Shown here: one piece after another, positions 11,233 through 27,615 of the stretch
Position numbering within the stretch: the stretch's first letter is position 1
Layout of the letters: every line of letters begins with the position of its first letter
From: a virus
Direction: 5' to 3' (one strand)
Virus record (IMG/VR): IMGVR_UViG_3300037826_000056
Location: 1-32,584 of that record
Length of the DNA: 32,584 nt
Notes under the pieces: model-generated
Told to the model about the DNA's origin: nothing
Seen by the model: only the letters and a program-made list of their open reading frames with translations
The model's database searches: none
Position numbers and translations under genes: made by a program

Positions 11233-12762
11233 TTACCCTCCACGCACTGCGGCAATACCCTGCACGATAATGCCATCCGACCCATCGCCAGCAAGCCCCG
11301 CAATAGCAATATTGTTCGCTGATACTCCGGGAATAGCTGCTTGTGGCACGGCAATACGATATCCGTAGTCAAACGTGGGCAGGTTCAGGATACGCCAACC
11401 AGAGCGGGTAATGTCGCGCCCGCCGTTCACCGACCAGTAAATTTGCGCTGTCGGGTCGGTGGTGGCATAACTGAAATAGATGACCTCACTCGTGGCCGCA
11501 ACAATATCGTACACATTGCCGCTGCCTGAGCCGCCGAATGTTTTCTCTGTCCAGGTCTCGCCACCATCAATGGTGTAGTAGATTTCGCCGCCGTCAGTGC
11601 CTGTCCAGATGTAATTTTCGTCAAACACTGCCAGCGCCTGCTGATTATCCGCAGACGGTGTGGCACTCGTGGCTGCGAACGTTTCGCCATTGTTGGTGCT
11701 GATGATGACGGTACCACTCGCCCCACTGGCAACAATGACATTATCGGTGCCATCGATGCGCGCCAGGTTGTTACTGGTAGCGCTGCCGGCGTCCAGAATG
11801 TCCGGTGCCGTCGTGACGTCAGTAAAGAGCCAGATATAGCCGTTTTGCCCACACACGTACACCTCACGAGGCCCACCGAAATAGGCATCAGTGGCATTAT
11901 TCGCAGCCCACGAGGACGGCGTCACCGTGGTGAATGTACCAGGCACGCCCGTTTTTTCATTAATGTCTGCCCAATAGAGGCTTGTGCCGGTGATGACCAC
12001 CAGTTTATCGCCTGCGATACCAATAGCAACCGGGTCCTCTGCAGTCACGGCAGTCTCTGTCCATGTTGCGCCGCCATCGGTGCTATAGATGACCTCGCCA
12101 TTGGTAGCTGAAGGCGTGTTGTATTTGGCGGCGGCATAAATCCATTCGGTGCCATCATTGGGCACGCCACAATCAGCGCACTGGAAACGATCCCCATACG
12201 CAATATCAATGACTTCAACCGTCACCTGCGTTGCGGCCTTTTCTCCAAACCCCAACGCCCCAACCGGATAAATGCCGCCAGTCACGGTCAGGCTTAATTC
12301 GTCAGTCACTGCATCGTCGGTGTCAAACGCAACCCGATCCCCCAGACTGCGGTCCGTCACCTCGCAATCGCTATAGATTTCGAGATAATCCGTGACGCCG
12401 TCGAGAAAAGACGACGGGTCTTTGCAGGTGCCTACCGTGCGGTACAAGTTGAACGGGCATTCCCCTTGAAGCAATTGCCATGGTAGCTGGCCATGGTCTT
12501 CGTACACAGATAATGTAGCACTATCGAAATCGGGTGGGTCCACCGTGCGCCCGACATTAATATACGCTTTGCGGCGACGCGGATCGCCAATCTGGATCGG
12601 GTTGATACCGCCTGACACCGGCGCTGACACACTGGTCAATGCCATCTTCTGGTCATCGACACCACTATAGGTCATTCGGTTTGTGGGGCGCGCGCCGCCG
12701 TCCTGCCGGAAGAGCCGCGCATGCTGATGTGTTACAATCTGATCTTTTGTAAGTTGAGACAT
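11233..12762 (-). CDS. Major tail (tube) protein candidate with C-terminal Asp-box beta-propeller
   Basis: A 509-residue protein in the tail-tube position, between connector and tail chaperones, with a strong AGGAGTAGGAGA ribosome-binding region. Residues about 1-190 form the likely tube domain. Residues about 195-509 are repeated beta blades with Asp-box/BNR signatures: STDGGATW at 227-234, STNNGETF at 355-362, TIDGGETW at 397-404, and a degenerate one near 444. Such repeats are typical of sialidase-like or Ycf48-like propellers. If this is the tube subunit, every ring of the tail would carry propellers on its outside, as other phages carry Ig-like domains. A less abundant tail protein is the alternative, but no other tube candidate is present. 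Confidence 0.65.
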   Translation of the reverse strand: MSQLTKDQIVTHQHARLFRQDGGARPTNRMTYSGVDDQKMALTSVSAPVSGGINPIQIGDPRRRKAYINVGRTVDPPDFDSATLSVYEDHGQLPWQLLQGECPFNLYRTVGTCKDPSSFLDGVTDYLEIYSDCEVTDRSLGDRVAFDTDDAVTDELSLTVTGGIYPVGALGFGEKAATQVTVEVIDIAYGDRFQCADCGVPNDGTEWIYAAAKYNTPSATNGEVIYSTDGGATWTETAVTAEDPVAIGIAGDKLVVITGTSLYWADINEKTGVPGTFTTVTPSSWAANNATDAYFGGPREVYVCGQNGYIWLFTDVTTAPDILDAGSATSNNLARIDGTDNVIVASGASGTVIISTNNGETFAATSATPSADNQQALAVFDENYIWTGTDGGEIYYTIDGGETWTEKTFGGSGSGNVYDIVAATSEVIYFSYATTDPTAQIYWSVNGGRDITRSGWRILNLPTFDYGYRIAVPQAAIPGVSANNIAIAGLAGDGSDGIIVQGIAAVRGG

Positions 12763-12774
12763 TCTCCTACTCCT

Positions 12775-14016
12775 TTAGAATGGAATAACCCCTGCCATAA
12801 TTCGCTCACCTTGCACGCGCTTCCATGCGTCAATATGCCCCAGCCGCGTGCCGAATGGATTGTTCAGGTCCTCGATGCTGATCTGATAAGTTTCATCGTT
12901 ATTCCCAGACGTTGAGGCGCGGTCAAACTGCCAGCGCCAGAGTTCGCGATTGGCATAATCGCACGTACAAATGCGGCGCGCCAATTCAGCCATAGCAAAG
13001 CGGGCCACCACAGGGATAAGCCACGCTGCCATTTTTCGTTTTTCGAGTGGATAGCCTGCATAATAATTGATGGTCACCCGGTCTGGTAGTCGGCTGCCAT
13101 ACAGGCACGACTCTGGACTTGACCAGCTATCCGTATCGGCGTTATAGACTGCCTCAGCAGGTGTCACCAGTCCTGTTCGCGCATCTCGAATACCCACGCG
13201 CGCTGTTGCTGTTGCGATGGCTGCCGGGTCGGTGCTCACGGTTTTTGCCGTGTATGCCCATGGCGGGTACGGCGTCGTTTCCCATGTCAGCGTTGCCTGC
13301 TGATCGCCATCTGTGGTGCGCTGATATACGTCAATCGTGTCAACATAGTTTGTGGCAACAGCCGCATCCAATTCAGCCGGGCTCACCCCCTCATACCGAA
13401 TAGGCTTAACCAGTTGCCATGCCCGCCCGCGTATAGTTGCGGTGCCGCCACTAATGGACACCGACACCGGGCGAATGCGCCAGCGTTCGTTTGCACCCTC
13501 ATCATCCAATCGATCCGCCTCTGCAAAATAGGGTTGTATCTGGTCGGGGTCAGTAATCGTTGTGCTTACGGTGACTGTAAATCTATCATTGAGCCCATCC
13601 CCATTGCTATCGCTATAGGTGACGGTGGGCGTATCAATCAGCGTAAGCTGTTCCGTGCCAAGCGCCTGCACGAAGCCCGCATCAGGCAATTGCACAGCAT
13701 TCCATTTGCCGCGCGGGCTGCCATACGACCCCCGCCAGAGGTTGGGGTTGAGGTAGTCAGGATATGGCAGGGTGATACTGCCATAACGCGGCGCAACACT
13801 ATAATGCAGGTACGTGCGCAGTCGCTCTTCGGCTCGCACAATCGACTCACGAATGTCATCGCGCCCGGCAGCGTCGGCAGCCTGCCACGCATACTCGGTC
13901 ACCACGGGGTTGCAACTCGACTGGATAGGCGCCTTACTGCCTGCCAACCCCCAGAAATGGTATGGGTGGTAGCCGAGATAGGTGCGGAATGTTTCTAATG
14001 CTAGCAAGTTACTCAT
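12775..14016 (-). CDS. Head-tail connector protein with beta-rich insertion
   Basis: A 413-residue protein. The N-terminal helices (RDDIRESIVRAEERLRTYLHY, about 54-74) and the C-terminal helical block (KRKMAAWLIPVVARFAMAEL, then a CDYANRELWRWQFD helix) have the look of the HK97 gp6/SPP1 gp15 connector bundle. Between them lie about 230 residues of beta-rich sequence, including a Ca-binding-like DSNGDGLNDRF loop near 153 and an Ig-like section. Known connectors of this class are about 100-150 aa, so a large insertion domain is inferred. It lies between the head genes and the tail-tube candidate, as expected. AAGGGTG precedes the ATG. Confidence 0.65.
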   Translation of the reverse strand: MSNLLALETFRTYLGYHPYHFWGLAGSKAPIQSSCNPVVTEYAWQAADAAGRDDIRESIVRAEERLRTYLHYSVAPRYGSITLPYPDYLNPNLWRGSYGSPRGKWNAVQLPDAGFVQALGTEQLTLIDTPTVTYSDSNGDGLNDRFTVTVSTTITDPDQIQPYFAEADRLDDEGANERWRIRPVSVSISGGTATIRGRAWQLVKPIRYEGVSPAELDAAVATNYVDTIDVYQRTTDGDQQATLTWETTPYPPWAYTAKTVSTDPAAIATATARVGIRDARTGLVTPAEAVYNADTDSWSSPESCLYGSRLPDRVTINYYAGYPLEKRKMAAWLIPVVARFAMAELARRICTCDYANRELWRWQFDRASTSGNNDETYQISIEDLNNPFGTRLGHIDAWKRVQGERIMAGVIPF

Positions 14017-14025
14017 GGTGCACCC

Positions 14026-14301
14026 TTAATCACAGGCCCCTTCTAGCCAGCGATGAATAATCAACACCCCGCCCGCAACGCCTAGCCATTCCAGGATGCG
14101 GCGTGGAGCAAACAGCATTGGCAATGCAACCCAGAATGACAGACACAATGGGCAACTGATGCCCGCCTCAAGCCACGGCCAGCGCATCGACCGCGCTCGG
14201 ACTCGCAGAAACACGAACCCCGGCCCCTCCTCGTTTGCAATCATATGTGCTACACGATAGGACGCCAGCATAGCGAGGAGTAATTGTTTACTTTCAGGCA
14301 C
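14026..14301 (-). CDS. DUF1360-like small membrane protein
   Basis: A 91-residue protein starting with GTG at 14,301, which overlaps the upstream stop by 8 bp and follows GGAGG. A longer frame reaching back to 14,544 lies inside the upstream gene and is not used. The sequence has the DUF1360 pattern: a helix containing ASYRVAHMIANEEGP, a loop, then the signature SCPLCLSFWVALPML, and a C-terminal hydrophobic helix (LGVAGGVLII). Two or three membrane segments are likely, with the CPLC pair perhaps binding metal. Members recur near phage head genes, but no function is established that I know of. Confidence 0.75.
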   Translation of the reverse strand: MPESKQLLLAMLASYRVAHMIANEEGPGFVFLRVRARSMRWPWLEAGISCPLCLSFWVALPMLFAPRRILEWLGVAGGVLIIHRWLEGACD

Positions 14302-14791
14302 GTTTCGGCCTCCCCCTGCGGCGCGATGCTCGTGTGGTTTCTTCTGGTTCTTCTGGTTCGTCTGGTTCGTCTTCTGTTGTGGGTACGTCATCATCTGGCA
14401 TGACAGCAAAATATTGCTCCATGCCGTGCGGCACATTTTCGTATGCTGTTGTATTTTCCTCACCAGGCTCCGCAACGAGTGCAGGTTTCGGCGGCGGAAC
14501 CGGCTGCGCCCCGCGATGTACAGTCGGGCGAGGGCGGTTGACAACCTTCCATTTTCTCGTGTTGATCATTCGTTCCACATCGTCTTTGTGGACATTGGCA
14601 AAACGGCTTGTCGGATTGGCCCCGCCGCGATACGAGCGCCCGTTTGCGCCTGAAAATGTGACGGCTCCCGTGTTTTTACCTGTGTATTCCATTCGCACAT
14701 ACGTTGTTGTACTGGTATTACTCACGGTTGTGGCCCCTTCCTTGACTGTCTGCGGTGTTGGCTGCTTGCCCTTTCCCCCACAACACGGCAT
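14294..14791 (-). CDS. Nested in-frame small head-region protein from internal start
   Basis: Inside the tri-modular glycosyltransferase gene, an in-frame ATG at 14,791 is preceded by a perfect AGGAGG (14,802-14,807), 10 nt away. It would make a 165-aa protein beginning MPCCGGKGK. Sequences starting with a CCGG-K motif followed by a V-R-x-E-Y-T-G strand are, from memory, found as stand-alone small proteins beside phage capsid genes. The stop codon that would normally end the glycosyltransferase is absent, so the module may be made both fused and free. The C-terminus is acidic then Arg/Lys-rich. Confidence 0.55.
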   Translation of the reverse strand: MPCCGGKGKQPTPQTVKEGATTVSNTSTTTYVRMEYTGKNTGAVTFSGANGRSYRGGANPTSRFANVHKDDVERMINTRKWKVVNRPRPTVHRGAQPVPPPKPALVAEPGEENTTAYENVPHGMEQYFAVMPDDDVPTTEDEPDEPEEPEETTRASRRRGRPKRA

Positions 14792-17062
14792 AATCTCTTT
14801 TCCTCCTGATATATATGGCCTATAGCGCTCTTCCAGGAGTGATTTTAATTCAACCTGGTGTCTGACCGCATACTGGCGACGAGCGCCTTTGCCCGGCTGA
14901 TACCCCAGCAACGGCAGCGCAATACGCTCGCCACAGATGCCATTGATAGCACAGCGCGCAAAGAAATCCCAGTCCTCCCAGGACGGCAAATCCTCATCAA
15001 ATTGAATGGTACGAGCATGGTCAATGTGCATCAGCACCGTAACCGCGTGCCACCCGTGCTCAAGCCATCCTACCTGTGAATATGCTTTACACTGCTGTGG
15101 TGTAATCTTGCCATTATGCCAGGTGAACCAGTCGCTATAGACATAACATGCATCGCTGTTGTGGTAGCCCTCAAAAAACGCCTGCAAGCCAGCAGGTATC
15201 AGGTAGTCGTCGGCATCCAGGAACAGGCACAGCGATGCACGCGCGGCGTCAATCCCGACATTACGCGCGGCCCCGGCTCCTGTTGCCCCGCTGGTGCGCA
15301 AGACACGAGCAAAGGGGTACGGACGTAACAGGTAGGCAGGAATGCCGTCATGGGTATCATCTATAACAATGGCTTCCCAGTCACGGAACGATTGACCGAG
15401 CAGGCTTTCTAAAGCGGTGGGCAAATCGGCAGCATGCCCCGGCCCGACTGGAATAATGACACTGATCTGCGGCTTGCGATAGGAGCGTACACGCGGCTGC
15501 TCACTGGCGGGCGCGCCTGCTGGGTAGTCGCCATCGTATGCCCACGGCAACCAGTCATACACGCCAGTATATTTGTGCTTCAGGCTCTTATGGTCGGGAT
15601 GGCTCCGGTAGTGAAACAGGCCATCAGTCGTGACACGTTGCGCGTCATAGCCAACTGACAGTCCACGCAGCCAGAACTCGTAATCCTCAGCACGTTTGTA
15701 AGTGGAGGTTTGCCCGCCCGCGCGCTCCCACATTTCTCGCCGAAACATTGCAGCGCACGTAATGGCATTGCCCTTGACCTCGCGTTCCCAGGAAAACGGG
15801 GCGCCTGATGACCGCCGCGCGCCGTCTGGGCGCTCCCAGGTAATCCCGCTATAGACGATGCCCAACTGGCGATTAGTGTGCAATGCCGGGCGCAACGTGG
15901 CAACATACGCACGATCAAGCCAGTCGTCAGCATCCAGACAGACAATATACGGCTGTGTGGCGTGGGCAATGCCGCGATTACGGGCGGCTCCTGGCCCTGC
16001 ATTCTCTTGATAGATATATGTCACGGGATAACGTTGGGCAATCTCGCGGGTATTGTCGGTGCTCCCATCGTCAACCACAATAATTTCTGCGGGCTTTTCT
16101 GTCTGCTTGAGACAACTCTGAATGGCATCGCCCAGGAACCGCCCATAGTTGTAGCAGGGAATGACAATACTGACTCCTGTTCGCTCGTGTTCGCGCTGTT
16201 GCAACACGCGTTCGTAAAGTGCTGCATAACGCGGTATGATGCGCGCCCAGTCGTATGCCTGTGCAGTTTCTCTACAGGCGCGGCTTATTTCGGCACGGTG
16301 CTCCATCAGCCAGTGATAGCCCGCAACCAGACCGGCAATGTCACCTTCTTCGACCAGCCATCCCGTGGCTTTATGCGTGACGACCTCTTCCGTTCCACTA
16401 CCAGTGTATCCAAGGATGGGCACCCCGGCAGCCATTGCTTCAAGTGTCCCGACCGCCATGACCTCGCGCGTGGTCGCAATGTACACTCCGGCATCCTGGA
16501 TGATTTGCCGCATGTCTTGAAACGATTGACGACCAATCACACGCGCATTGTCGGGGTGCGTCACATTGTCTGGCAAAAATGTCGACACCACTGGCACACC
16601 CTGAGATGCCAGTTCATAGGCGGGGCGAGGGTCACAAATACGACTACTTCGCGTCTTATTCCACAGAGCGTATGATTGGGTGTTACCCGGTTGCCAGTTT
16701 GCCACCTCGATCCCATTGGGGATAATGTCAGGGTGTAATCGTAAATCGCGCCGCAACACCATCGCACTCCACTCCGATGGTATGGTATGTGCATGCGCCT
16801 CCCGAATGGTGCGCATAAGTTTGCGGTTGACGGCACGGTCGGCAGCAGTATCGCTATCATAATGCAGGCCGTGCAAATGATGCACGTCAATGCGCGGTAC
16901 ATCTCGCTGAGCCGAAATATGCACTGCGATAATGTCTGCTGTGTTCGGATCGTCAACCACGTGCCAACCAAGGCCCGGCAGGTGGCGACGTTGCGCCGCG
17001 ATCACCTGCCCAACGCCACCCACCGCATTATTATCAGCCGATGGCAACCAGACGCGCTTCAT
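14294..17062 (-). CDS. Tri-modular glycosyltransferase (GT4-GT2-GT2) with C-terminal phage head-type domain
   Basis: A 922-residue protein. The ATG at 17,062 overlaps the upstream stop as ATGA and is preceded by GGGGAGAGG; an in-frame upstream start is not needed. Residues 1-295 resemble a GT4 (GT-B) enzyme, with TTREVMAVGTLEAMAAGVPI and a following GSGTEEVV. Residues about 296-520 are a GT2 (GT-A) domain with VVDDGSTDNT and the metal-binding LDADD at 376-380. Residues about 533-755 are a second GT2 domain with VIDDTHDG and LDADD near 615-619. Residues 758-922 begin CCGGKGK, carry a V-R-x-E-Y-T-G beta motif and end in an acidic, then basic tail. That module looks like a separate small head-region protein. 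The enzyme likely builds a short glycan on a virion protein or host polymer. Confidence 0.85.
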   Translation of the reverse strand: MKRVWLPSADNNAVGGVGQVIAAQRRHLPGLGWHVVDDPNTADIIAVHISAQRDVPRIDVHHLHGLHYDSDTAADRAVNRKLMRTIREAHAHTIPSEWSAMVLRRDLRLHPDIIPNGIEVANWQPGNTQSYALWNKTRSSRICDPRPAYELASQGVPVVSTFLPDNVTHPDNARVIGRQSFQDMRQIIQDAGVYIATTREVMAVGTLEAMAAGVPILGYTGSGTEEVVTHKATGWLVEEGDIAGLVAGYHWLMEHRAEISRACRETAQAYDWARIIPRYAALYERVLQQREHERTGVSIVIPCYNYGRFLGDAIQSCLKQTEKPAEIIVVDDGSTDNTREIAQRYPVTYIYQENAGPGAARNRGIAHATQPYIVCLDADDWLDRAYVATLRPALHTNRQLGIVYSGITWERPDGARRSSGAPFSWEREVKGNAITCAAMFRREMWERAGGQTSTYKRAEDYEFWLRGLSVGYDAQRVTTDGLFHYRSHPDHKSLKHKYTGVYDWLPWAYDGDYPAGAPASEQPRVRSYRKPQISVIIPVGPGHAADLPTALESLLGQSFRDWEAIVIDDTHDGIPAYLLRPYPFARVLRTSGATGAGAARNVGIDAARASLCLFLDADDYLIPAGLQAFFEGYHNSDACYVYSDWFTWHNGKITPQQCKAYSQVGWLEHGWHAVTVLMHIDHARTIQFDEDLPSWEDWDFFARCAINGICGERIALPLLGYQPGKGARRQYAVRHQVELKSLLEERYRPYISGGKEIMPCCGGKGKQPTPQTVKEGATTVSNTSTTTYVRMEYTGKNTGAVTFSGANGRSYRGGANPTSRFANVHKDDVERMINTRKWKVVNRPRPTVHRGAQPVPPPKPALVAEPGEENTTAYENVPHGMEQYFAVMPDDDVPTTEDEPDEPEEPEETTRASRRRGRPKRA

Positions 17063-17712
17063 AAGCCTCTCCCCTGCCAACTCCCTGCAACCGGCCCGGC
17101 GTTTCTCCAAAGATGGTCAGGCAGCCCGAACGCCGGAATGAGCGGCGCGGCCAATGTCCCATCGAGACCGAACGACCGACAACGGGCACACCAGGCATTT
17201 TCCGTGTGCCCTATTTTCTTATCCTCTGGATACATCCCAGCAGTGTCGTGAAATCGACGGTGCTTGATATGTGGTGCATCGCTTGCTATATACAGATACT
17301 TGTCGCTCCAGTTCATTCGCCAGTACCCGCGCTCCATGGTGGCGGTGATGGCACGCCCCTTGAAGAGCGTATCAAGCCGTATCCAGGACGATGCCGGCTC
17401 ATCCAATCGCAAGAGCATATCAGAGAGATTGATCGGCTTCTGTAACTGCCGGTCATCCTGCACTTGCAACACAAGCGGCGTCTGTTGCCACGCCGCCCTG
17501 AGTCCTGTGTTTGTGTTTTTTCCCATCCCGCCGCGTTGTGTCACCACCAGTTCGGCACCAAACTGGCGCACAACCTCGTGTGTGTCGTCGGTGCTGCCAT
17601 CATCTGCCACAATCCAGGTAGCTGGTTGCGGGACGAGGTTGCGCCGCAAGCACGCCAGCGTTTCGGCCAGCGTGCTTGCACGGTTATAGGTGATAACAAG
17701 CGCGGCATACAT
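17059..17712 (-). CDS. GT2-family glycosyltransferase
   Basis: A 217-residue GT-A enzyme immediately after the capsid gene. The ATG at 17,712 lies 5 nt after AGGAG; a GTG six bases upstream is less well placed. It has the GT2 opening VITYNRASTLAETL, the nucleotide-sugar motif IVADDGSTDDT and a metal-site-like QVQDDRQL. It also has a Cys pair (WCARC) and lacks membrane spans, so it is probably cytosolic. It overlaps the next glycosyltransferase by 4 bp (ATGA), which indicates co-production. Likely it adds one sugar in the same pathway as the downstream enzyme. Acceptor and donor are unknown. Confidence 0.85.
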   Translation of the reverse strand: MYAALVITYNRASTLAETLACLRRNLVPQPATWIVADDGSTDDTHEVVRQFGAELVVTQRGGMGKNTNTGLRAAWQQTPLVLQVQDDRQLQKPINLSDMLLRLDEPASSWIRLDTLFKGRAITATMERGYWRMNWSDKYLYIASDAPHIKHRRFHDTAGMYPEDKKIGHTENAWCARCRSFGLDGTLAAPLIPAFGLPDHLWRNAGPVAGSWQGRGL

Positions 17713-17720
17713 CGCCACTC

Positions 17721-19169
17721 CTAGCCAGTCGGGTCAAAATACGATGGTGCTGCAAATGTGGTCTGACCGCCATCATAGAAGTAGGTGCCGGTCGGGTCCC
17801 AATCGCGCTCCATAATCAGGCTCGTCCATCCGACATTGGTCATACGGGCAGCGATTTGTGGCGTAAGCAAGACCAGGCGCGGCTTGGCACTGGCGAGCAA
17901 CTGTACACAATAGTTCGTATTTGGCTTGACTGCCCAGAGGAAGCGCCCGCCGTCGCTGGTGTAGAACTGATCGCGGCCTGCCATAATACCCGCCGCCTGC
18001 ATCGCGCCGCCTGGTACGTCAAAATTGAAGTACTCAAGATACGTAACACGTGTGGCCCCCTTGACGGTCATGGGCACGAAATAGATGTCGCTCTCGTGGA
18101 TACCGCCTGCATTCGTGCTGTAGGGAATGGCATCGTCAATAATGACTGGCACCTGCTGCCCATCAATGAGGAGGTATTGCCCGGTGTAGCTGTAGAGATC
18201 GCCGCGCATGCCATCGCGCATACGATTGGCCTCTGCAGTGTCGATATCGACCGAGGCGTTGGTGTTGCTGGTGTTGTTTGCACACCTGAATGTCATGTAC
18301 GAGCAAGGCCAGATGTCTGTTAATGCATAGAAAAGCCCAAACGGCATAGCCAACACCCAGCGCACAGGGTTCAGGTTCATGTGCGCGGCGCGGTGCTGCA
18401 AATGCCGATATATAGCCGTGATACTCCGCACCGCGCCGTCGCCATTCGTGTTGACCGCGTTATCACCAAATGAGTAGATCAGGCTGTCGGCTGCCGGGCA
18501 GGCGGTGCCGGTTTCAGCGTCTATACGGTTGGTGTTAATCAGGATGTCCAGTCCGTTGAAATATTTCCGGCCCGCCGTATTGCTTGCCGGGTTGCCATCA
18601 TAGAGCTCCTGTGCAAAGTCGCGACTCCACGACACCGCCAGTTCAGCCAGGAGCTTGGCGGTATCTCGTTGCGCGGCCATGGCCGGGCTGGCGTTCGGAA
18701 TGGTTGGCGCTACGCCCGTTTCGAACATATCAGCCGGGTTGCCAAAAATCTGGAAATCCATAAACTCGCCACGGTTGACACGCTGCCCAAATTCCCGCAG
18801 GTCGTATGACGGTGTTTGCCGTGCCTGCAACCCAAACGGCAGCGATTGTGTACAGAGCTTCAGCGTCCCGGCGGTGGGCGGGTCGTCACATTGTGCCGTC
18901 GGTTCGTCTCCCGATGTTGCCGTCTGCCCGGTGATGATGCCATACAGCGGGTCGGTATCCTGGCTGGGCCTGGCCGGGAGGCGTGCCTGCAACCCCGCCA
19001 TAGGCAATTGCATGGCGCTGAACAACGGGCGCGACAGGCCAAGTGCAGAGAATAGCCCGCCGGGGCCGTGCGAGTGAATGCCTGTTGGGGGTGTGTCAGC
19101 AGCTTTGTAGCGGCTCTGCTCTGCCATCATCGCAGCCGCAAGCCGCTTGTAATCAATCGGGTTGTGCAT
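17721..19169 (-). CDS. HK97-fold major capsid protein
   Basis: A 482-residue protein directly after the protease/scaffold gene (TAATG overlap, GGAGGG site). Position, size and layout fit a major capsid: an N-terminal flexible region (about 1-120), then a helical and beta core with LAVSWSRDFAQELYDGN, a central domain starting near NLNPVRWVLAMPFGLF, and a C-terminal P-domain-like stretch with IMERDWDPTGTYFYDGG. The family link is by overall pattern rather than a diagnostic motif. The prohead protease upstream suggests cleavage of an N-terminal segment. Its neighbour glycosyltransferases raise the possibility that this abundant protein is glycosylated. Confidence 0.85.
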   Translation of the reverse strand: MHNPIDYKRLAAAMMAEQSRYKAADTPPTGIHSHGPGGLFSALGLSRPLFSAMQLPMAGLQARLPARPSQDTDPLYGIITGQTATSGDEPTAQCDDPPTAGTLKLCTQSLPFGLQARQTPSYDLREFGQRVNRGEFMDFQIFGNPADMFETGVAPTIPNASPAMAAQRDTAKLLAELAVSWSRDFAQELYDGNPASNTAGRKYFNGLDILINTNRIDAETGTACPAADSLIYSFGDNAVNTNGDGAVRSITAIYRHLQHRAAHMNLNPVRWVLAMPFGLFYALTDIWPCSYMTFRCANNTSNTNASVDIDTAEANRMRDGMRGDLYSYTGQYLLIDGQQVPVIIDDAIPYSTNAGGIHESDIYFVPMTVKGATRVTYLEYFNFDVPGGAMQAAGIMAGRDQFYTSDGGRFLWAVKPNTNYCVQLLASAKPRLVLLTPQIAARMTNVGWTSLIMERDWDPTGTYFYDGGQTTFAAPSYFDPTG

Positions 19170-19804
19170 TACCGTTGCCCTCCATTCATACCAAACAGCG
19201 CACCAGTAATCTGACCAAGCACATCCTCGCCTTCCGGTGGCTGCGGTGTCTCTTTGCCTGTGATGGTGTCATCTGCGATGCTGGCGCGATATCCATTCGC
19301 ACGGGGCTGATCGCCTTCCAATTCCTGAAGGCGATGATTGACCTCTTTCAACCCCTGCGCCAATGCGGCGCGCTCTTGTTTCAGGGTTTCTAGTTCCGAC
19401 TTCACCCCATCGGCGGCCTTCATGGAATAACCTTCCATTTTGCGCTCATACTCACCCATCATTTTGCGCATCTTCTCGTCCATGCCGTCTTCGATCTTGC
19501 CGACATACATATTCATCGCTTCCATCATCGCGCTGCGCACCAGCGACGCGAGTTCGTCACGCCCTATCGGCATTGCCATTTTTTCACTCTGCACTGCCGG
19601 TTCGGGCTCTGGCACCACTTCAAAGCTGCCGTCCTTATATCGCCATGTTTGCCCGTCGGGCGTGGTAATGGTGTCGGCGTCCTTGTAGCGCACTCCTGAT
19701 GCTTGCGCGGCCTTGTTGGTCTTCTCGATGTTTTCAAGTACCTCGTTGAATGCACTGCTGTCCCCAAGAAGCGCCTTCAGTGCCTTGATTTTTTCCGTAT
19801 CCAT
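19169..19804 (-). CDS. Nested scaffolding protein from internal start
   Basis: An ATG at 19,804 (codon 448 of the protease gene, start of MDTEKIKALKALLGD) is preceded by GAGGAG only 6 nt away, the best ribosome-binding site in this gene. The resulting 211-aa protein is charged and helical. It has coiled-coil segments (MDEKMRKMMGEYERKMEGY; LETLKQERAALAQGLKE), the composition of a scaffold, and a C-terminus ending FGMNGGQR next to the capsid start. The arrangement matches lambda gene C with nested Nu3: one gene gives a protease-scaffold fusion and free scaffold. Confidence 0.75.
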   Translation of the reverse strand: MDTEKIKALKALLGDSSAFNEVLENIEKTNKAAQASGVRYKDADTITTPDGQTWRYKDGSFEVVPEPEPAVQSEKMAMPIGRDELASLVRSAMMEAMNMYVGKIEDGMDEKMRKMMGEYERKMEGYSMKAADGVKSELETLKQERAALAQGLKEVNHRLQELEGDQPRANGYRASIADDTITGKETPQPPEGEDVLGQITGALFGMNGGQR

Positions 19805-21145
19805 AGACTTCTCCTCTACTGTTGTCAGGCTGGTAAACCGATTGCTTGCCATCTCTTTTGGCAGCAAGCTTGTTTCAAATTTGCGAATATCTTCAAACAC
19901 ACCATCTGGCCCTGGCTCGCTTTCGGCATGACTAAAGCCAATGGATAGCCCTAACGTGTCTTGCTTTGTCGCAACCGATTGCGCGACGCGCTGGTCATCA
20001 AATGTTCCGCTCTCCACGAGGAGCCGGTCATTAGATGAGAGCGCCTGAAAATCAATGTCCCCCAGGTCCGCGCCCTGCATATGCCACCAGCGCAGTACTC
20101 CCCGCTCGCCTGTCTGGTCACCACGCTGCACCACCCCGTGCAGCGCCTTTGTGCTGACAATTTCGTTGTCTCGATCCAGATAGGCGGTGCTACTTACTGC
20201 GACCCAGCGATAGTGGCCGTCTGCCTGCTTGAAGACCGTAAACAAGCCTTTGCTACGCTGAGGATCGGGATCGCTACTGACGTAACTCGGACTGCCGGGG
20301 GTGTTTGGGGCATCGCGTTTGCGTTCAATCAGGCGCTGACGTTCCGCTTCACTGAGCGCTGCTGCTTCCTGGGCCGGGAGGCATTTCGGGTATGCGCGGC
20401 GGTAGTCGTCTTCGCTCATATTGGCCGTATCGCGTCCGCACGGCTCAAACCCGCCGCCATCTTTTGGGCGGCTTATGTCAACCCAACGCTCTGCAAACCA
20501 TTCGTCAAGCGCTTTTTCACTCGTGTACGTGCCCCCCAATCGTTCGTATTCCTGGACAACCTGCCCACTGGCATAGGCACTGGGCCAGGTGCGCACCCGA
20601 TTGCGCACCGTGTTGCGTGCTTGCTGCCAGAGTTCAGGATTGCGCACACCCTCCGGTACATCTGTTTCTTTCGTCTTTGCTGGGTCGTGTGCCCAATTGA
20701 GGAGTGAGATATCACGCTTGCTGTAGTCGCGCCCACCCTGTGTGATGACGGGCTTCCCCTGCTGAGCAGCACTCATTCGACTAATGAAGCTGATGGTACG
20801 GTTCGCCTCGCGTACCTCATCACTTCCCCATTCGTCTTTTGGCGTGCGCAATAGCCGCAGGTTGCGATTGATCGGCGCGCGGCTCAGGCTCGCCATGGTG
20901 CTGGCCTCGGTGTCTGCCCACGCTTCGAGTTCGGATGCGGACATGTTGACCAGATCGTGATACTGAGCAAACGTTTCGTCTATCTCGTCCTGGTCTGCTT
21001 TGGTGCTGTATTCGCTGGCTTCGATGGCGGCAATCTGCGCATACGCCCGCCGCGGGTCCTGATGACAACCGAACACGCGCCCACCAGGGTCGTCTCGCTT
21101 TACAACGCAGTGCATATTATTCCGGTTTTGAACAATGTATGGCAT
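19169..21145 (-). CDS. Prohead protease fused to scaffold, with N-terminal extension
   Basis: A 658-residue protein with three parts. Residues 1-290 form an unusual N-terminal region: a start-proximal segment with QDPRRAYAQIAAIEASE, then a DUF5872-like section with WVDISRPK, GGGFEPCGRD (230-239) and YPKC (252-255). Residues about 300-440 are the serine protease domain. The likely catalytic His is 355 in WWHMQG and the Ser is 401 in LGLSIGF, with LDRDNEIVS and a FETSLLPKEMASNRFTSL ending typical of prohead proteases. Residues 448-658 are the coiled-coil scaffold, which can also start internally. The ATG at 21,145 has no clear ribosome-binding site and lies 8 nt after a terminator T-tract; an internal start at Met11 is possible but equally weak. 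Confidence 0.8.
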   Translation of the reverse strand: MPYIVQNRNNMHCVVKRDDPGGRVFGCHQDPRRAYAQIAAIEASEYSTKADQDEIDETFAQYHDLVNMSASELEAWADTEASTMASLSRAPINRNLRLLRTPKDEWGSDEVREANRTISFISRMSAAQQGKPVITQGGRDYSKRDISLLNWAHDPAKTKETDVPEGVRNPELWQQARNTVRNRVRTWPSAYASGQVVQEYERLGGTYTSEKALDEWFAERWVDISRPKDGGGFEPCGRDTANMSEDDYRRAYPKCLPAQEAAALSEAERQRLIERKRDAPNTPGSPSYVSSDPDPQRSKGLFTVFKQADGHYRWVAVSSTAYLDRDNEIVSTKALHGVVQRGDQTGERGVLRWWHMQGADLGDIDFQALSSNDRLLVESGTFDDQRVAQSVATKQDTLGLSIGFSHAESEPGPDGVFEDIRKFETSLLPKEMASNRFTSLTTVEEKSMDTEKIKALKALLGDSSAFNEVLENIEKTNKAAQASGVRYKDADTITTPDGQTWRYKDGSFEVVPEPEPAVQSEKMAMPIGRDELASLVRSAMMEAMNMYVGKIEDGMDEKMRKMMGEYERKMEGYSMKAADGVKSELETLKQERAALAQGLKEVNHRLQELEGDQPRANGYRASIADDTITGKETPQPPEGEDVLGQITGALFGMNGGQR

Positions 21146-21153
21146 ACGGCAAT

Positions 21154-21192
21154 AAAAAAACGGCGCTCTTCTCCATCAGGAGAAAAACACCG
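21154..21192 (-). terminator. Intrinsic terminator or attenuator before the capsid module
   Basis: On the minus strand a 14-bp stem (three G-U pairs) with a TGAT loop, 21,161-21,192, is followed by seven T residues (21,154-21,160). It is the strongest terminator in the window, yet it sits between a promoter-like -10 and the protease start codon 8 nt later. Confidence 0.8.
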
Positions 21193-21243
21193 CTGCCCTA
21201 CTGTTATTTCGGGGTTGGGTTACATATATATAATTCTGTCTGT

Positions 21244-21252
21244 ATTATAGCA
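21244..21252 (-). promoter_or_regulatory. Extended -10 promoter upstream of the capsid module
   Basis: On the minus strand TGCTATAAT forms an extended -10; the best -35 is weak (TGTAAA, 17 bp away, inside the last codons of the upstream gene). A transcript from near 21,237 would have a leader of about 90 nt containing the terminator hairpin at 21,154-21,192. Confidence 0.55.
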
Positions 21253-21260
21253 CAACCCTG

Positions 21261-21485
21261 CTAGTCTTTACACTCCACAAGCCGCATTTTTCTACTCTGT
21301 TGTGCTCGTGTGGGTACGTTGGGTCGGGTTTGCAGTTCAGCTTCCAATGTCGAGAGCAAGCCCCGCGCCTGCCGTTCGGCCTGACTGCCCGGCTCTACCA
21401 CGTCCAGTAAGCTGAGCAGCGCCGCGCACACCGCATAGCGGCGGCGGGCCTGTTCGCGTTGCAGGTCGTGGTTATGGGCTGTCAT
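21261..21485 (-). CDS. Hypothetical helical protein, 74 aa
   Basis: ATG at 21,485, with the stop of the upstream gene 3 bp away. The product is entirely helical and charged (NHDLQREQARRRYAVCAALL, then ERQARGLLSTLEAELQTR), with a central short loop (VEPGSQA) suggesting a helical hairpin. It is the last gene before the terminator and promoter region that precedes the capsid genes. No family is recognised. Another frame over the same bases also lacks stops but is a shadow, because it overlaps two better-supported genes. Confidence 0.6.
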   Translation of the reverse strand: MTAHNHDLQREQARRRYAVCAALLSLLDVVEPGSQAERQARGLLSTLEAELQTRPNVPTRAQQSRKMRLVECKD

Positions 21486-21488
21486 CGT

Positions 21489-21737
21489 TTAGCCTTTATC
21501 CTCTTTTCGGGTAATCTCCATCCAATGAGTGACCTTCGATGGATTGTGTAGCGATGTGCCGTAGGCGTCAAGTTCCCACCGGCGTTTCTCTCCATCAAAG
21601 CGCGCCTGCTCCCAGGTTTCGCCAATGGGGTTGCCCTCAAAATCATATTCCACTGTCCAGGCCAGCACAGGGTCATAGGTATCAGGGAGGCGCTCAGTGG
21701 CATCTATCCAGACGAAGGTATAATCTGTTGGCCCCAT
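21489..21737 (-). CDS. DUF551-like protein
   Basis: An 82-residue protein with ATG at 21,737 overlapping the preceding stop (TGATG). It has the DUF551 pattern: FVWIDATERLPDTYDPVLAW near the start, a variable middle with EQARFDGEKRRWEL, and the closing VTHWMEI. Families of this kind occur as small phage proteins of unknown function with a W-I-...-LP opening and a V-T-H-W end. A second, split DUF551-like gene lies at 22,630-22,862, so the phage carries two copies of different sequence. Confidence 0.7.
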   Translation of the reverse strand: MGPTDYTFVWIDATERLPDTYDPVLAWTVEYDFEGNPIGETWEQARFDGEKRRWELDAYGTSLHNPSKVTHWMEITRKEDKG

Positions 21738-22054
21738 CACGCACCCCGTTTCACGATCCGATATTCCAGCGGCGGCTGCTTGCTCCGATCCACCGCAATT
21801 ACTACGTATTCTTTCGCCATATCATACTCGCGTACCTTCCGCACCAGTTCAAGCGGCACTATCTCAGCCAAGCGCCTAACAGGCACATACGCAATATGCA
21901 CCGGCTCGCCTATTGTCACCACCACCGCGCCGCGTGTCTCGGCGTGCCCACGAGCGGTGGCGTCCACGTCGCGCATAAATGCCTGCACGCCCTCAATGTG
22001 TTCTGGGCTGTATGGTGTTGGTTGTGCGGATGGCACGCGGCGGCCTCTGGTCAT
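21737..22054 (-). CDS. Hypothetical protein, 105 aa
   Basis: ATG at 22,054, overlapping the methyltransferase stop as ATGA; the open frame further upstream lies inside that gene. The first 20 residues are basic and extended. A helix (EHIEGVQAFMRDVDATARGH) is followed by a probable beta segment (AVVVTIGEPVHIAYVPV) and a second helix-strand section (EYDMAKEYVVIAVDRSKQ). No family or motif is recognised. It lies in a run of four small, tightly overlapping accessory genes between methyltransferase and capsid module. Confidence 0.6.
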   Translation of the reverse strand: MTRGRRVPSAQPTPYSPEHIEGVQAFMRDVDATARGHAETRGAVVVTIGEPVHIAYVPVRRLAEIVPLELVRKVREYDMAKEYVVIAVDRSKQPPLEYRIVKRGA

Positions 22055-22593
22055 TGGGCAGTACCCTTCTTTAACACACGTATTGACTGCACAGACTGCA
22101 CGCATTCCCATCCGTTCTCGCACATCCGATCCACCACCGTTCGCACTCCGACCCATCGGGGTGAGTAGTCGTGAAACACCAGCACGCCACGAGATGAGAG
22201 GAGCGGTGCCCACGCAAGCACATCCGCCTGCACGTCGTGCTTCTGGTGCCCAGCATCGATAAAGACGACATCAAACTGCGGGCCGAACGGTGCAAGTTGC
22301 TGCCCGGTCTGGGCCGTGTCTGCGCAGATTGCGGTAATACGCTCGGCACAATCTGGAAACCGTTCGAGTGTTTCCTGGAATACAGCACAATCACCCTCGC
22401 CAGGCCAATGCCACAGCGACACCGCAAGGACGTACGCTCGTGCTGCCATCAGGATGGTACTCTTCCCAGCCCCAACCCCCAGATCAGCACATCGGTACCC
22501 AGGCCATGCCAGATCATAGAGCAGCCGCATCTCATCAGGTCGCAAAAACGATTGCACCGTTTCTAACTGTTGAACTAGTCGCTTATAGTTCAC
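22051..22593 (-). CDS. SAM-dependent methyltransferase (Methyltransf_24-like)
   Basis: A 180-residue class I methyltransferase starting with GTG at 22,593 behind a GGAG-containing site. Motif I is ADLGVGAGKST (about 36-46). The second signature VVFIDAGHQKHDVQADVLAW (about 109-128), followed by PLLSSRGVLVFHDY, is typical of Methyltransf_24 proteins, many of which sit in glycan clusters. The acidic residue after motif II is less obvious than usual. The substrate is unknown. With the sugar O-methyltransferase-like neighbour two genes upstream, O-methylation of a glycan is a reasonable inference. Confidence 0.8.
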   Translation of the reverse strand: MNYKRLVQQLETVQSFLRPDEMRLLYDLAWPGYRCADLGVGAGKSTILMAARAYVLAVSLWHWPGEGDCAVFQETLERFPDCAERITAICADTAQTGQQLAPFGPQFDVVFIDAGHQKHDVQADVLAWAPLLSSRGVLVFHDYSPRWVGVRTVVDRMCENGWECVQSVQSIRVLKKGTAQ

Positions 22594-22629
22594 AACCTCA
22601 ACTCCATTACAAACGGTCTATAACAGTAG

Positions 22630-22698
22630 TCATGTGTAGGTTTCCCATTCTGGTGGCTTGGGCAGATGTTGCCAGTGTGACACCTGCACGTCAGTCAT
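22630..22698 (-). pseudogene. Detached C-terminal piece of DUF551-like gene
   Basis: A 22-codon frame beginning at an ATG that overlaps the stop of the 55-aa gene (ATGA at 22,695-22,698). It encodes VSHWQHLPKPPEW, which is exactly the closing motif expected of a DUF551 protein and is missing from the upstream piece. The two pieces are in the -1 relation. A single-base indel, a sequencing error or re-initiation could explain it. Confidence 0.5.
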
Positions 22699-22862
22699 TC
22701 CTCCTCGGGGAAGAAGGATACCCAATGATACCCCGTCCAGAGATAGTCTTGTGGACCCGACCCTTTTTGCACACAACGCGCCAGGCTATACCCTTCGACA
22801 CCCCAGGCCAGCACGGTTTCGCCTGGCTCTGGCAAGGCAGCATGTATACTAGTCCATTCCAT
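22695..22862 (-). CDS. DUF551-like N-terminal protein, 55 aa (split gene)
   Basis: ATG at 22,862 with GGAGG 4-8 nt upstream, starting inside the last 14 bp of the sugar methyltransferase gene. The product (opening MEWTSIHAALPEPGETVLAW) matches the start of DUF551 proteins: a conserved Trp, then LP-x-x-GE-x-VL. It ends after WTGYHWVSFFPEEE at a TGA. The expected C-terminal HW-LP motif is encoded just downstream in the -1 frame. The 55-aa piece may fold poorly alone. It is too short to stand out by length, but codons, ribosome-binding site and family pattern support it. Confidence 0.65.
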   Translation of the reverse strand: MEWTSIHAALPEPGETVLAWGVEGYSLARCVQKGSGPQDYLWTGYHWVSFFPEEE

Positions 22863-23652
22863 TACGCCTCCTCCCGAACAAAAATGACCGCTCAGTATGC
22901 CACGTGTGTTCGGGCATTGTTGCTATCCACTCCTGAAACACTGGCCCATTTTGCATCTCTCGAAACCGCCCCTGGTACGCGATGCAAAAATCATCGATGT
23001 CGCGTATCGCTTGCAATAATGGTTGCCGCTGGCGAGCGCTGGTTTCTGAGAGCGCCCACAAACTGACAAACAGGGTATGCCCGGTGATGGTGGCGACACG
23101 ACGTTGCCACGCCTCACGATCATAATAGCACTCAGTTGTTACTCCGGCTTGCGCGGTGTACCAGGATTGCAACGCGGCAAACGCAGGAAGGTCATACAGA
23201 ACATAGCTCCCACGAAACCCCAGGTTATGACACAGTCGCGCAAAACTGCCATAGCCGCCGCCAATCTCGACGATTGTATCATGGGCAGCGATTGGTATGC
23301 CGCGCCATTGTTCGTAGTACGCAGCAGTATGCGCGTGGTGAATAAGCTGGCTACTCGTTCCTACGTCTGGGGTGCTGGCAGGCGGACCCCCAATCCAGTC
23401 CTCTCGCGTGGCGGGATGCCAGCGTTCCTGCCAATCGGGGCGCGACTGCAGCCACGCGTATTCATCCTGCACAAACGACTGATTGCCAACAAACATGGTT
23501 GACCGCACCACCGGGCACTGAATGAAGGATCGGTAGCCGTGCCGTGCTATCCACGCCCGCAGGAGGCCATCACGCTCGTACCACGCCGCCTCCGCCTCAG
23601 TTTCGGGCTGGGGCAACTGTGGCAACATCCCTATATCAATCATCGTGGGCAT
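22849..23652 (-). CDS. Putative sugar O-methyltransferase
   Basis: A 267-residue protein. After a variable N-terminal half, motif I is DTIVEIGGGYGSFARL (about 124-139), followed by SYVLYDLPAFAALQSWY, a pattern I associate with putative sugar O-methyltransferases found in surface-polysaccharide clusters. It also has LFVSLWALSE, matching a beta-4 strand and the following helix. No membrane segment is present. ATG at 23,652 overlaps the stop of the preceding gene by no bases but abuts it; a second Met four codons in is also possible. The likely reaction is SAM-dependent methylation of a sugar hydroxyl; acceptor unknown. It is out of place among neck genes, so probably an accessory insertion. Confidence 0.75.
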   Translation of the reverse strand: MPTMIDIGMLPQLPQPETEAEAAWYERDGLLRAWIARHGYRSFIQCPVVRSTMFVGNQSFVQDEYAWLQSRPDWQERWHPATREDWIGGPPASTPDVGTSSQLIHHAHTAAYYEQWRGIPIAAHDTIVEIGGGYGSFARLCHNLGFRGSYVLYDLPAFAALQSWYTAQAGVTTECYYDREAWQRRVATITGHTLFVSLWALSETSARQRQPLLQAIRDIDDFCIAYQGRFREMQNGPVFQEWIATMPEHTWHTERSFLFGRRRNGMD

Positions 23653-25318: not shown

Positions 25319-26065
25319 TTAACTAAATGGATAACTTAATCCTGAGCCGCTGTTATACAGGTCGCTGATTTCTCCGGATGTGAGCAACCGTTTCCAGATG
25401 CCGACTTCATCAATACGACTACCGTTGGAGATAAAATCTTCAAACCCAGAGAATTGCCTTGCGCCTATTTGAAACTCTGCGCTGCCTACCGTAGCAGGGA
25501 TGATACCTGTTGTTTCGTTGGGGGTGCCATCGTTTACGATAAGTCGTATACGATTGTCACTTGCACGATAATCGGCAACAAGGAAGTACCAGGTATTTGT
25601 TGTTGGGACTGTGCTATCGGGTACACGCCCGCTCCCTTGAACATTGAAAACGAGCTCGTTTGTTAGCTGGTCAATCTGTAGGGTATATTCCCGCGAGCCA
25701 ATGGCATCTTTTCCAACGATCTTCTGCCGTGTTCCGTCCAATACAGCCAGATACACCCAACACGCAATGGTGAAATCGCCATCCATCTGAACATCAGAAT
25801 TGCTTGCCAGGCTGAGAAAGTTGCTCCCATCAAACTCGGCACTTCCCGCACCAACTTTCGGCGTGCCGACCGTCACGCTGCCGTTGTTGGTGAGGTCGTT
25901 GCCACCAACGCTATCCGACCACGTAAGGTCATCAAGTTTCCAGTAGGCGGTAAGGTCGGCGAGCAGGGGCGAGGCTGCGCCGCCGCTCTGGGCAACCTGT
26001 ATGCCCGGCGGAATTGCACCTACGTACAATGGCGCGCCTGCAGAGGCGATACGAATACCGGTCAC
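25319..26065 (-). CDS. LamG/concanavalin A-like virion lectin
   Basis: A 248-residue protein starting with GTG at 26,065 (TAGTG overlap, GGAGA upstream). Residues about 35-248 have the LamG_3-type pattern: LTAYWKLDDLTWSDSVGGND, then GSAEFDGSNFLSLASNSDVQ, FTIACWVYLA, WYFLVADYRASDNRIRLIVN, and IDEVGIWKRLLTSGEISDLY near the end. This jelly-roll fold usually binds carbohydrate or acts as a structural surface domain. The first 35 residues are a Gly/Ala-rich anchor. Position between portal and capsid suggests a head surface (decoration) protein rather than a tail fibre; that is inference. Confidence 0.75.
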   Translation of the reverse strand: MTGIRIASAGAPLYVGAIPPGIQVAQSGGAASPLLADLTAYWKLDDLTWSDSVGGNDLTNNGSVTVGTPKVGAGSAEFDGSNFLSLASNSDVQMDGDFTIACWVYLAVLDGTRQKIVGKDAIGSREYTLQIDQLTNELVFNVQGSGRVPDSTVPTTNTWYFLVADYRASDNRIRLIVNDGTPNETTGIIPATVGSAEFQIGARQFSGFEDFISNGSRIDEVGIWKRLLTSGEISDLYNSGSGLSYPFS

Positions 26066-26475: not shown

Positions 26476-26504
26476 TTGTAATGATTGAATATCCATGCTA
26501 TAAT
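26476..26504 (+). promoter_or_regulatory. tnpB promoter giving a near-leaderless transcript
   Basis: TTGTAA at 26,476-26,481 and TATAAT at 26,499-26,504 (with an extended TGC) are 17 bp apart. The expected start site is about 26,511, one base before the tnpB ATG. A 7-bp inverted repeat (ATTGAAT at 26,484-26,490, ATTCAAT at 26,503-26,509) brackets the -10 like an operator. Confidence 0.7.
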
Positions 26505-26511
26505 TCAATAT

Positions 26512-27615
26512 ATGAAGATTATAGCACAAATCAAGCTGAACCCCACGCCTGACCAGTACGCAGCCCTGTTGCGCACGTTGGAACAGGCGAATGCTGCCTG
26601 CAACTACATCAGTCAGGTCGCGTGGGATACGCGCACGTTCAAAAAGTTCGACCTGCAAAAGCTGGTCTACCGCGACGTGCGCGAACAGTTTGATTTGTCG
26701 GCGCAAGTGACCGTGCGGATGCTTGCCAAAGTAGGCGATGCCTACAAACTGGACAAGCAGACGCAGCGCACCTTCAAGCCACACGGGTCTATCGCCTACG
26801 ATGACCGCATCCTGTCCTACCAGTTGGACAAGAGCACGGTCAATATCTGGACGCTGGCAGGTCGCCAGCGCATCCCGTTTGTCTGTGGAGAGCGCCAGTG
26901 TGAACTGCTCCAGTTTCGCCAGGGCGAGAGCGACCTCGTGTTGGTCAACAATACGTTCTACCTGCTGGCTGTCTGCAACATTGAAGAACCCACGCCGGAC
27001 GAGATTGAGGGCATCCTGGGCGTTGACCTGGGCATCAACAACATCGCGTCTGACAGCGACGGCAACCACTATTCGGGCGAGCAGGTTGAACAGACCCGCC
27101 AGCGATATCACGGCCTGCGCCAGCGCCTTCAGCGACGCGGCACCAAATCGGCCAAACGCCATCTGAAGAAACTGCGCCAGAAACAGGCGCGGTTCCAAAA
27201 AGACACAAACCACCGGATCAGCAAAGACCTCGTTGCGCGTGCGAAAGACAGCGGGCGCGGCATCGCTCTGGAAGACCTGAGCGACATCCGCGAACGGACA
27301 CGGTTGCGTAAGGCACAACGAGCACGACACAGCAACTGGGCCTTTGCCCAACTGCGCCAGTTCATCAGCTACAAGGCTCGGTTGGCAGGGGTGCCTGTCT
27401 GTATCGTTGACGCGGCCTACACCAGCCAGCGATGCAGTGCATGCGAGCACACCGAACGCGCCAATCGTCCCACGCAAGCCCATTTCTGTTGTGTGTCGTG
27501 CGGTCATACGGCCTCTGCTGATACCAATGCGGCGATAAACATTTCCAGGGCGGCAGTCATACCGCCTATTGTCTCGGAGGCGGCTCTGCCGCCGCGCCAG
27601 GGACAAGCCGCCTGA
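26512..27615 (+). CDS. tnpB: TnpB RNA-guided nuclease
   Basis: A 367-residue TnpB. It has the N-terminal MKIIAQIKLNPTPDQ and ACNYISQVAW of the family, a RuvC nuclease with Asp172 (GVDLGIN), Glu254 (ALEDLSD) and Asp337 (SADTNAAIN), and the target-strand zinc ribbon (Cys308, Cys311, Cys326/327, Cys330). The triad is intact, so the enzyme should be active. TnpB is guided by an omega-RNA from the element's right end to cleave target DNA next to a short TAM, which keeps or spreads the element. No ribosome-binding site precedes the ATG, in line with a leaderless message. The gene runs against the head operon, so operon transcripts cross it in antisense. Confidence 0.95.
   Translation: MKIIAQIKLNPTPDQYAALLRTLEQANAACNYISQVAWDTRTFKKFDLQKLVYRDVREQFDLSAQVTVRMLAKVGDAYKLDKQTQRTFKPHGSIAYDDRILSYQLDKSTVNIWTLAGRQRIPFVCGERQCELLQFRQGESDLVLVNNTFYLLAVCNIEEPTPDEIEGILGVDLGINNIASDSDGNHYSGEQVEQTRQRYHGLRQRLQRRGTKSAKRHLKKLRQKQARFQKDTNHRISKDLVARAKDSGRGIALEDLSDIRERTRLRKAQRARHSNWAFAQLRQFISYKARLAGVPVCIVDAAYTSQRCSACEHTERANRPTQAHFCCVSCGHTASADTNAAINISRAAVIPPIVSEAALPPRQGQAA

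Follow-up and report, generated by a model that had tools for sequence, protein, structure and literature searches.

A glycosyltransferase fused to a head/neck-module protein and encoded between capsid and neck genes suggests that a lineage of tailed phages sugar-coats its own particles

The stretch of DNA analysed here, hereafter the window, is the whole 32,584-base IMG/VR record IMGVR_UViG_3300037826_000056, a tailed-phage fragment whose late genes lie on the minus strand. These genes are arranged in the order of a Rha-type regulator, terminase, portal, a LamG protein, small genes, two methyltransferases, a protease/scaffold-like protein, the major capsid protein (MCP), a GT2 glycosyltransferase (GT), a GT4-GT2-GT2 enzyme, a DUF1360-like membrane protein, an adaptor, a beta-propeller-like protein, the tape measure protein and two further proteins. 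The MCP (17721–19169, minus strand) matches no Pfam or PHROG family and was recognized by its position and its conservation in the lineage. The protease/scaffold-like gene (19169–21145, minus strand) is assigned by its position upstream of the MCP, where it is kept in the mapped relatives, and its family matches are of unknown function only. The head-tail adaptor (12775–14016, minus strand) was identified through its homologues, 3 of 13 of which match phrog_442 (best E=1.5e-4), while the window copy itself gives no match. The small DUF1360-like membrane protein matches PF07098 just under the cut-off (E=7e-4) and phrog_781 with E=4.8e-6; its open reading frame spans 14026–14544, with a likely GTG start at 14301 (gene 14026–14301, minus strand). 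The LamG domain (25319–26065; PF13385, E=2.6e-16) is real, and the beta-propeller-like protein (11233–12762) has BNR/Vps10 matches only near or under the cut-offs. On the opposite strand, between the portal and the next gene, lies an ORF that reads as TnpB/IS605 OrfB-like (26485–27615, plus strand). The portal directly abuts the next gene in the related records L003 and L004, so this ORF looks like a recent insertion.

The GT4-GT2-GT2 gene (14294–17062, minus strand) encodes 922 amino acids. The mechanical ORF extends to 17110, and the start is more likely at 17062, because an ATGA overlap with the stop of the preceding GT2 gene is found there. PF00535 matches the protein twice (whole-protein E=1.9e-49), and the GT4-type family PF00534 matches once (E=2e-13). 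Over 22 homologues, E216 and E224 are conserved with the E-x7-E spacing of GT4 enzymes, as are acidic, DxD-type motifs in the two GT2 domains (LDAD at residues 392–395 and LDxDD at 631–635). The AF2 model of the protein has a pLDDT of 81. In Foldseek comparisons of this model with the PDB, the tandem GT2 part is closest to chondroitin polymerase and heparosan synthase (E=5.6e-26), and the best folds for the GT4 part are BshA and SenB. The final 165 residues form a separate domain, fused in frame to the C-terminus, that is not a GT. Between the MCP and this gene lies the single-domain GT2 (17059–17718, minus strand; PF00535, E=1.2e-12), which is present at the same site in L003/L004 and L009; elsewhere, other sugar genes replace it.

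The two methyltransferases lie upstream of the protease/scaffold-like gene. MT2 (22051–22593, minus strand) belongs to the Methyltransf_24 family (PF13578, E=2.5e-16). MT1 (22849–23652, minus strand) is a putative sugar O-methyltransferase without a Pfam match; its similarity to TIGR04371 is under the cut-off (E=8.8e-6, 25.5 bits against a cut-off of 44), and it has a homologue in L008 (E=1e-8). Thus, the four enzymes that the first-pass annotation had placed inside the head genes are all present near the positions it gave and on the minus strand, MT1 by its weak profile match and the others by Pfam, and the structure prediction it had proposed, run on the GT4-GT2-GT2 protein, returned GT-type folds. 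Their location among the head genes also stands, with more precise sites: the methyltransferases are just upstream of the protease/scaffold-like gene, and the GTs are between the capsid and adaptor genes.

We named the C-terminal domain of the GT4-GT2-GT2 protein CC, after its two conserved cysteines. This Cys pair is missing from a few of the fused genes (L129, L146, L157 and L160). AF2 predicts a confident small beta fold in CC (residues 30–85, pLDDT about 96). In the window, an internal ATG at 14791 opens a putative separate product of 165 amino acids (14294–14791, minus strand), and it is preceded by the Shine-Dalgarno (SD) sequence AGGAGG at 14802–14807 (TATCAGGAGGAAAAGAGATT-ATG). The SD duplex energy at this start is −10.3 kcal/mol, as compared to a median of −2.3 kcal/mol for the other internal Met codons. 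All 27 mapped fusions carry an in-frame start codon (25 ATG, one GTG and one TTG) behind an SD just before the Cys motif, with a median energy of −9.1 kcal/mol, against −2.3 kcal/mol for 421 other internal Met codons. In the wider set, an internal start with an SD was found in 75 of 83 loci, a scan that took start codons only near the Cys motif, so that its codon tally is not independent. In a synonymous-codon control on the mapped fusions, the observed mean was −8.8 kcal/mol and the expected mean −6.2 kcal/mol (combined p about 8e-6, over sequences that are not independent of one another); part of the SD signal thus comes from the encoded amino acids, for which SD-like codons are likely in any case. 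From the position of this start inside the GT gene, we infer that free CC may be made, in addition to the fusion, from one nested gene.

CC weakly matches phrog_748, a head-tail connector family. The small domain of CC aligns over most of the profile, with weak scores: E=0.003 for the window CC, and matches at E≤1 for 4 of 24 CC members. Across 31 whole records, phrog_748 gave five matches, every one of them in CC, with weak per-record E values from 2.7e-5 to 0.007; none was found in the eight isolate phages examined. CC differs from phrog_748 in its two N-terminal cysteines, its low-complexity tail and its usual fusion to a GT. Foldseek of CC against the PDB gave no match under E 0.001, and the best match in BFVD had an E of 0.017. 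No small protein of Thermobifida phage P1312, Dagobah or Krili matched CC significantly.

We then looked at how constantly these genes are linked, using three IMG/VR searches seeded with the capsid, the GT and the adaptor. The search with the MCP only found 32 contigs. A GT profile matches 30 of 34 whole records from the MCP-based set, three of them partially (G022, G027 and G028), as these contigs end before the full GT; in the four records without a match, the contig ends shortly after or within the MCP. All 24 mapped records that reach the adaptor carry the GT::CC fusion, one of them in a one-domain form. Searching with the GT only gave at least 275 matching stretches. Among the 83 GT4-GT2-GT2 loci examined, the MCP is upstream in 65, DUF1360 downstream in 75 and the adaptor downstream in 77, and every one of the 83 has the MCP upstream and/or the adaptor downstream. 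Given that this arrangement recurs in all of the loci found with the GT as the query, it is far beyond chance, and the co-occurrence with capsid genes that the first-pass annotation had proposed to look for is borne out for the GT. GT distances correlate with MCP distances with r=0.74, as compared to 0.85 for the protease, 0.82 for the portal and 0.81 for the adaptor; the GT tracks the MCP nearly as well as these genes do, indicating that it is inherited with the head.

The lineage is one of uncultured phages. The MCP, CC and adaptor have no relatives among 50,697 isolate phages, and an MCP scan of the GTDB genomes found none. A GT scan of 84,980 bacterial and archaeal genomes returned only three real relatives, each of them located on a phage-like contig. 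Among these, two are the same match in MAGs of different phyla: L164 and L165 share their coordinates, scores and gene order, yet one MAG is assigned to Proteobacteria and the other to Gemmatimonadetes, which points to misbinning of a phage contig. Some relatives have features of their own. Group I introns (Rfam RF00028) interrupt the MCP gene at L007:4966–5152 (E=5.5e-15) and L034:10658–10840 (E=3.2e-14). In the 60-kb relative G001, a phage gene set at L253:10131–14113 resembles type IV CRISPR effectors; its Csf2/Cas7 match (TIGR03115, E=8.2e-22) is under the cut-off and adjoins a CysH-like gene, and the record also has PAPS-reductase, Cas6 and RAMP matches.

The search seeded with the adaptor revealed a graded series at the same site. 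CC stands alone between the MCP and DUF1360/adaptor in L279, L284 and L285. A group of loci has a GT2::CC protein of about 350 amino acids, three loci (L263, L287 and L292) have GT2-GT2::CC of about 680 amino acids, and the remaining loci have GT4-GT2-GT2::CC. In the records with CC alone, the GT profile either matches CC only or gives no match, and neither a GT2 nor an epimerase match is present in any part of the record. The DUF1360-like gene is kept between CC and the adaptor in 75 of the 83 GT loci, and also where CC stands alone. The presence of CC by itself in records without a GT2 or epimerase match indicates that, within the head/neck module, CC is the part that stays constant, while the GT and the sugar genes are gained or lost jointly.

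The interval between the MCP and the GT varies from 12 bases to about 20 kb among the records. In a Pfam scan of the 133 ORFs in these intervals, in which one protein may match several families, we counted 26 NAD-epimerase/RmlD, 24 GT2, nine Methyltransf_24, eight Methyltransf_23, eight DegT aminotransferase, three sulfotransferase, two hexapeptide transferase and two GT10 matches. The window cassette is among the simplest, with a single GT2 between the MCP and the GT and the two methyltransferases upstream of the protease. Of the 33 mapped records, about half have a relative of MT2, in several cases between the MCP and the GT, and about a fifth have one of MT1, implying that methylation is an accessory decoration. 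The first-pass annotation had read the four enzymes as building a short, O-methylated glycan; the glycosylation module is supported, while O-methylation becomes an optional part of it.

Taken together, these arrangements suggest that the module probably glycosylates the phage's own particle, with CC being a head/neck protein through which the GT is tethered to the virion as it assembles. CC would be a constant small head/neck component, encoded between the capsid and the adaptor, and in most members of the lineage a GT with one to three catalytic domains is joined to its N-terminus. The internal start would yield free CC as well, so that when CC is assembled into the procapsid or neck, a minority of the copies would bear a GT and keep it beside the capsid subunits. 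There, the GT domains would draw on cytosolic nucleotide sugars, host-made or remodelled by the cassette enzymes, to assemble a short glycan on one of the virion proteins. The outer groups of this glycan would differ through the action of accessory methyl-, sulfo- or acyltransferases. We put forward only tentatively, at somewhat less than even chances, the fuller proposal that a head/neck protein has repeatedly been recruited as a GT carrier, that one gene gives both free CC and CC bearing one to three GT domains, and that the few enzyme-tagged copies built into each particle glycosylate it during assembly.

The idea of a virion acceptor, already favoured by the first-pass annotation, is strengthened by the lineage-wide linkage of the GT to the head, the fusion to a domain of the head/neck module, the loci with CC alone, the lack of GtrA and Wzx described below and the Corndogvirus precedent; the glycan on a virion protein itself is what these genes would predict. 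Its further suggestion that the LamG and beta-propeller proteins could bind such glycans, or those of the host, is not supported, as loci without the GT also encode the beta-propeller protein, and LamG was seen in no record beyond the window and its near relatives. In most GT-bearing phages, the C-terminus of the MCP (window 17724–17800) forms a Ser/Thr/Tyr-rich tail after a GG motif. In the GT-less relatives, this tail is missing in L284 and shortened in L285, and L279 has a different long extension. We set the tail aside as the acceptor, since the cases are too few and L279 differs, and keep it as a weak lead to where a glycan might be attached.

A different target for the same enzymes would be the host surface: late in infection, they would change a glycan of its envelope, so that superinfection or the re-adsorption of progeny is blocked, and their site among the head genes would merely reflect late expression. 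The PHROG matches of the GTs name GtrB-like O-antigen conversion, and the tandem GT2 domains resemble the capsule polymerases K4CP and heparosan synthase. The small DUF1360 membrane protein that follows the GT in most loci fits as well, but its retention where the GT is absent argues against such a role. As compared to the GtrABC serotype-conversion systems, to which the window GT2 domains are weakly similar through GtrB, the lineage is placed in a head operon, has neither GtrA (PF04138) nor a Wzx flippase in any of 21 related whole records, which are possibly fragments, and carries a tyrosine integrase in only four of them. Modification of the host surface also leaves unexplained why the GT shares a reading frame with a head/neck-module protein, one that is found alone elsewhere. 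We tried this explanation, as well as DNA modification (see below), through marker genes and rank both low; a host-surface target appears unlikely.

The fusion itself might reflect nothing beyond translation coupling. CC would then be made from the internal start, while the long protein would be a free cytosolic GT, its CC tail having no targeting role and its substrate being any phage or host molecule. The SD and internal start seen in every mapped case fit such coupling, as does L159, in which a stop codon separates the GT from CC, and L150, in which an HNH-like ORF (12367–12900) is inserted right after the GT, where the CC fusion is expected. However, coupled genes need no common frame, and the fusion stays in frame whether the GT has one, two or three domains, and in nearly all of the 83 loci; nor would coupling account for sugar cassettes specifically between the MCP and the fusion. 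We therefore regard coupling alone as quite improbable, and favour a virion-tethered enzyme.

Phage GTs that glycosylate DNA are known from the literature cited in PMC12619734, and the non-structural ORFs in the 60-kb relative include two N6/N4 DNA methylase matches. Hypermodification of the phage DNA by the window GTs is nevertheless very unlikely, as a thymidylate-synthase/hydroxymethylase-type gene (PF00303) occurs in none of the 21 records, possibly incomplete, the cassette genes serve to make sugars and not modified bases, and the GT is constantly tied to head genes. Equally remote is the idea that GT-CC travels as an enzyme in the virion and, once brought or injected into the next host, modifies a target there: the resemblance of CC to a connector family means that the fused enzyme could be packaged, but GTs need cytosolic nucleotide sugars, and the adjacent sugar-synthesis genes point to action in the producing cell.

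If particle glycosylation by a tethered GT is correct, virion glycosylation, known in tailed phages so far from a few mycobacteriophages, would be a core trait in a widespread uncultured lineage and nearly universal within it; the lineage would also have a defined route by which the enzyme reaches the particle, and a locus at which sugar chemistry is exchanged. Natural GT-minus comparisons are available in the loci where CC stands by itself.

Among known enzymes, the E. coli K4 chondroitin polymerase (K4CP) and the Pasteurella heparosan synthase 2 likewise have a tandem GT2 pair, with acidic residues that are conserved in the window GT. To our knowledge, both are bacterial capsule polymerases without an added GT4 or phage CC domain. 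Among phages, virion glycosylation itself is already known. The mycobacteriophages Che8, Corndog and Myrna are reported to use GTs of their own to glycosylate their capsid and tail-tube proteins (PMC12363180), with the glycans at the C-termini of the capsid and tail-tube subunits (PMC12619734), and a further paper names Rita along with Che8 (PMC11256854). What appears to be undescribed is the GT::CC fusion, since we found no description of a GT fused to a head-tail connector in the open-licence literature. Che8 resembles the window lineage in having several phage GTs (gp108–gp110) and glycosylated capsid and tail-tube C-termini (PMC12619734, PMC12363180), whereas its GTs are encoded at the right end of the genome, away from the head genes. 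Che8 gp110 gave no meaningful BLASTP alignment with the window GT2 or GT4-GT2-GT2, and gp108 aligned with the window GT only in a patch of 23% identity (E=0.024). The Corndogvirus phages differ in that their GTs are separate single genes upstream of the MCP, none of them annotated as a head-protein fusion, and the window capsid and adaptor have no detectable relative among isolates. In gene order, they are similar: Corndogvirus Krili encodes the portal, an O-methyltransferase, three GTs, the protease and the MCP in this order. Corndog-type virions are reported to be glycosylated (PMC12363180), and the Krili arrangement is a direct precedent for the module that the first-pass annotation proposed.
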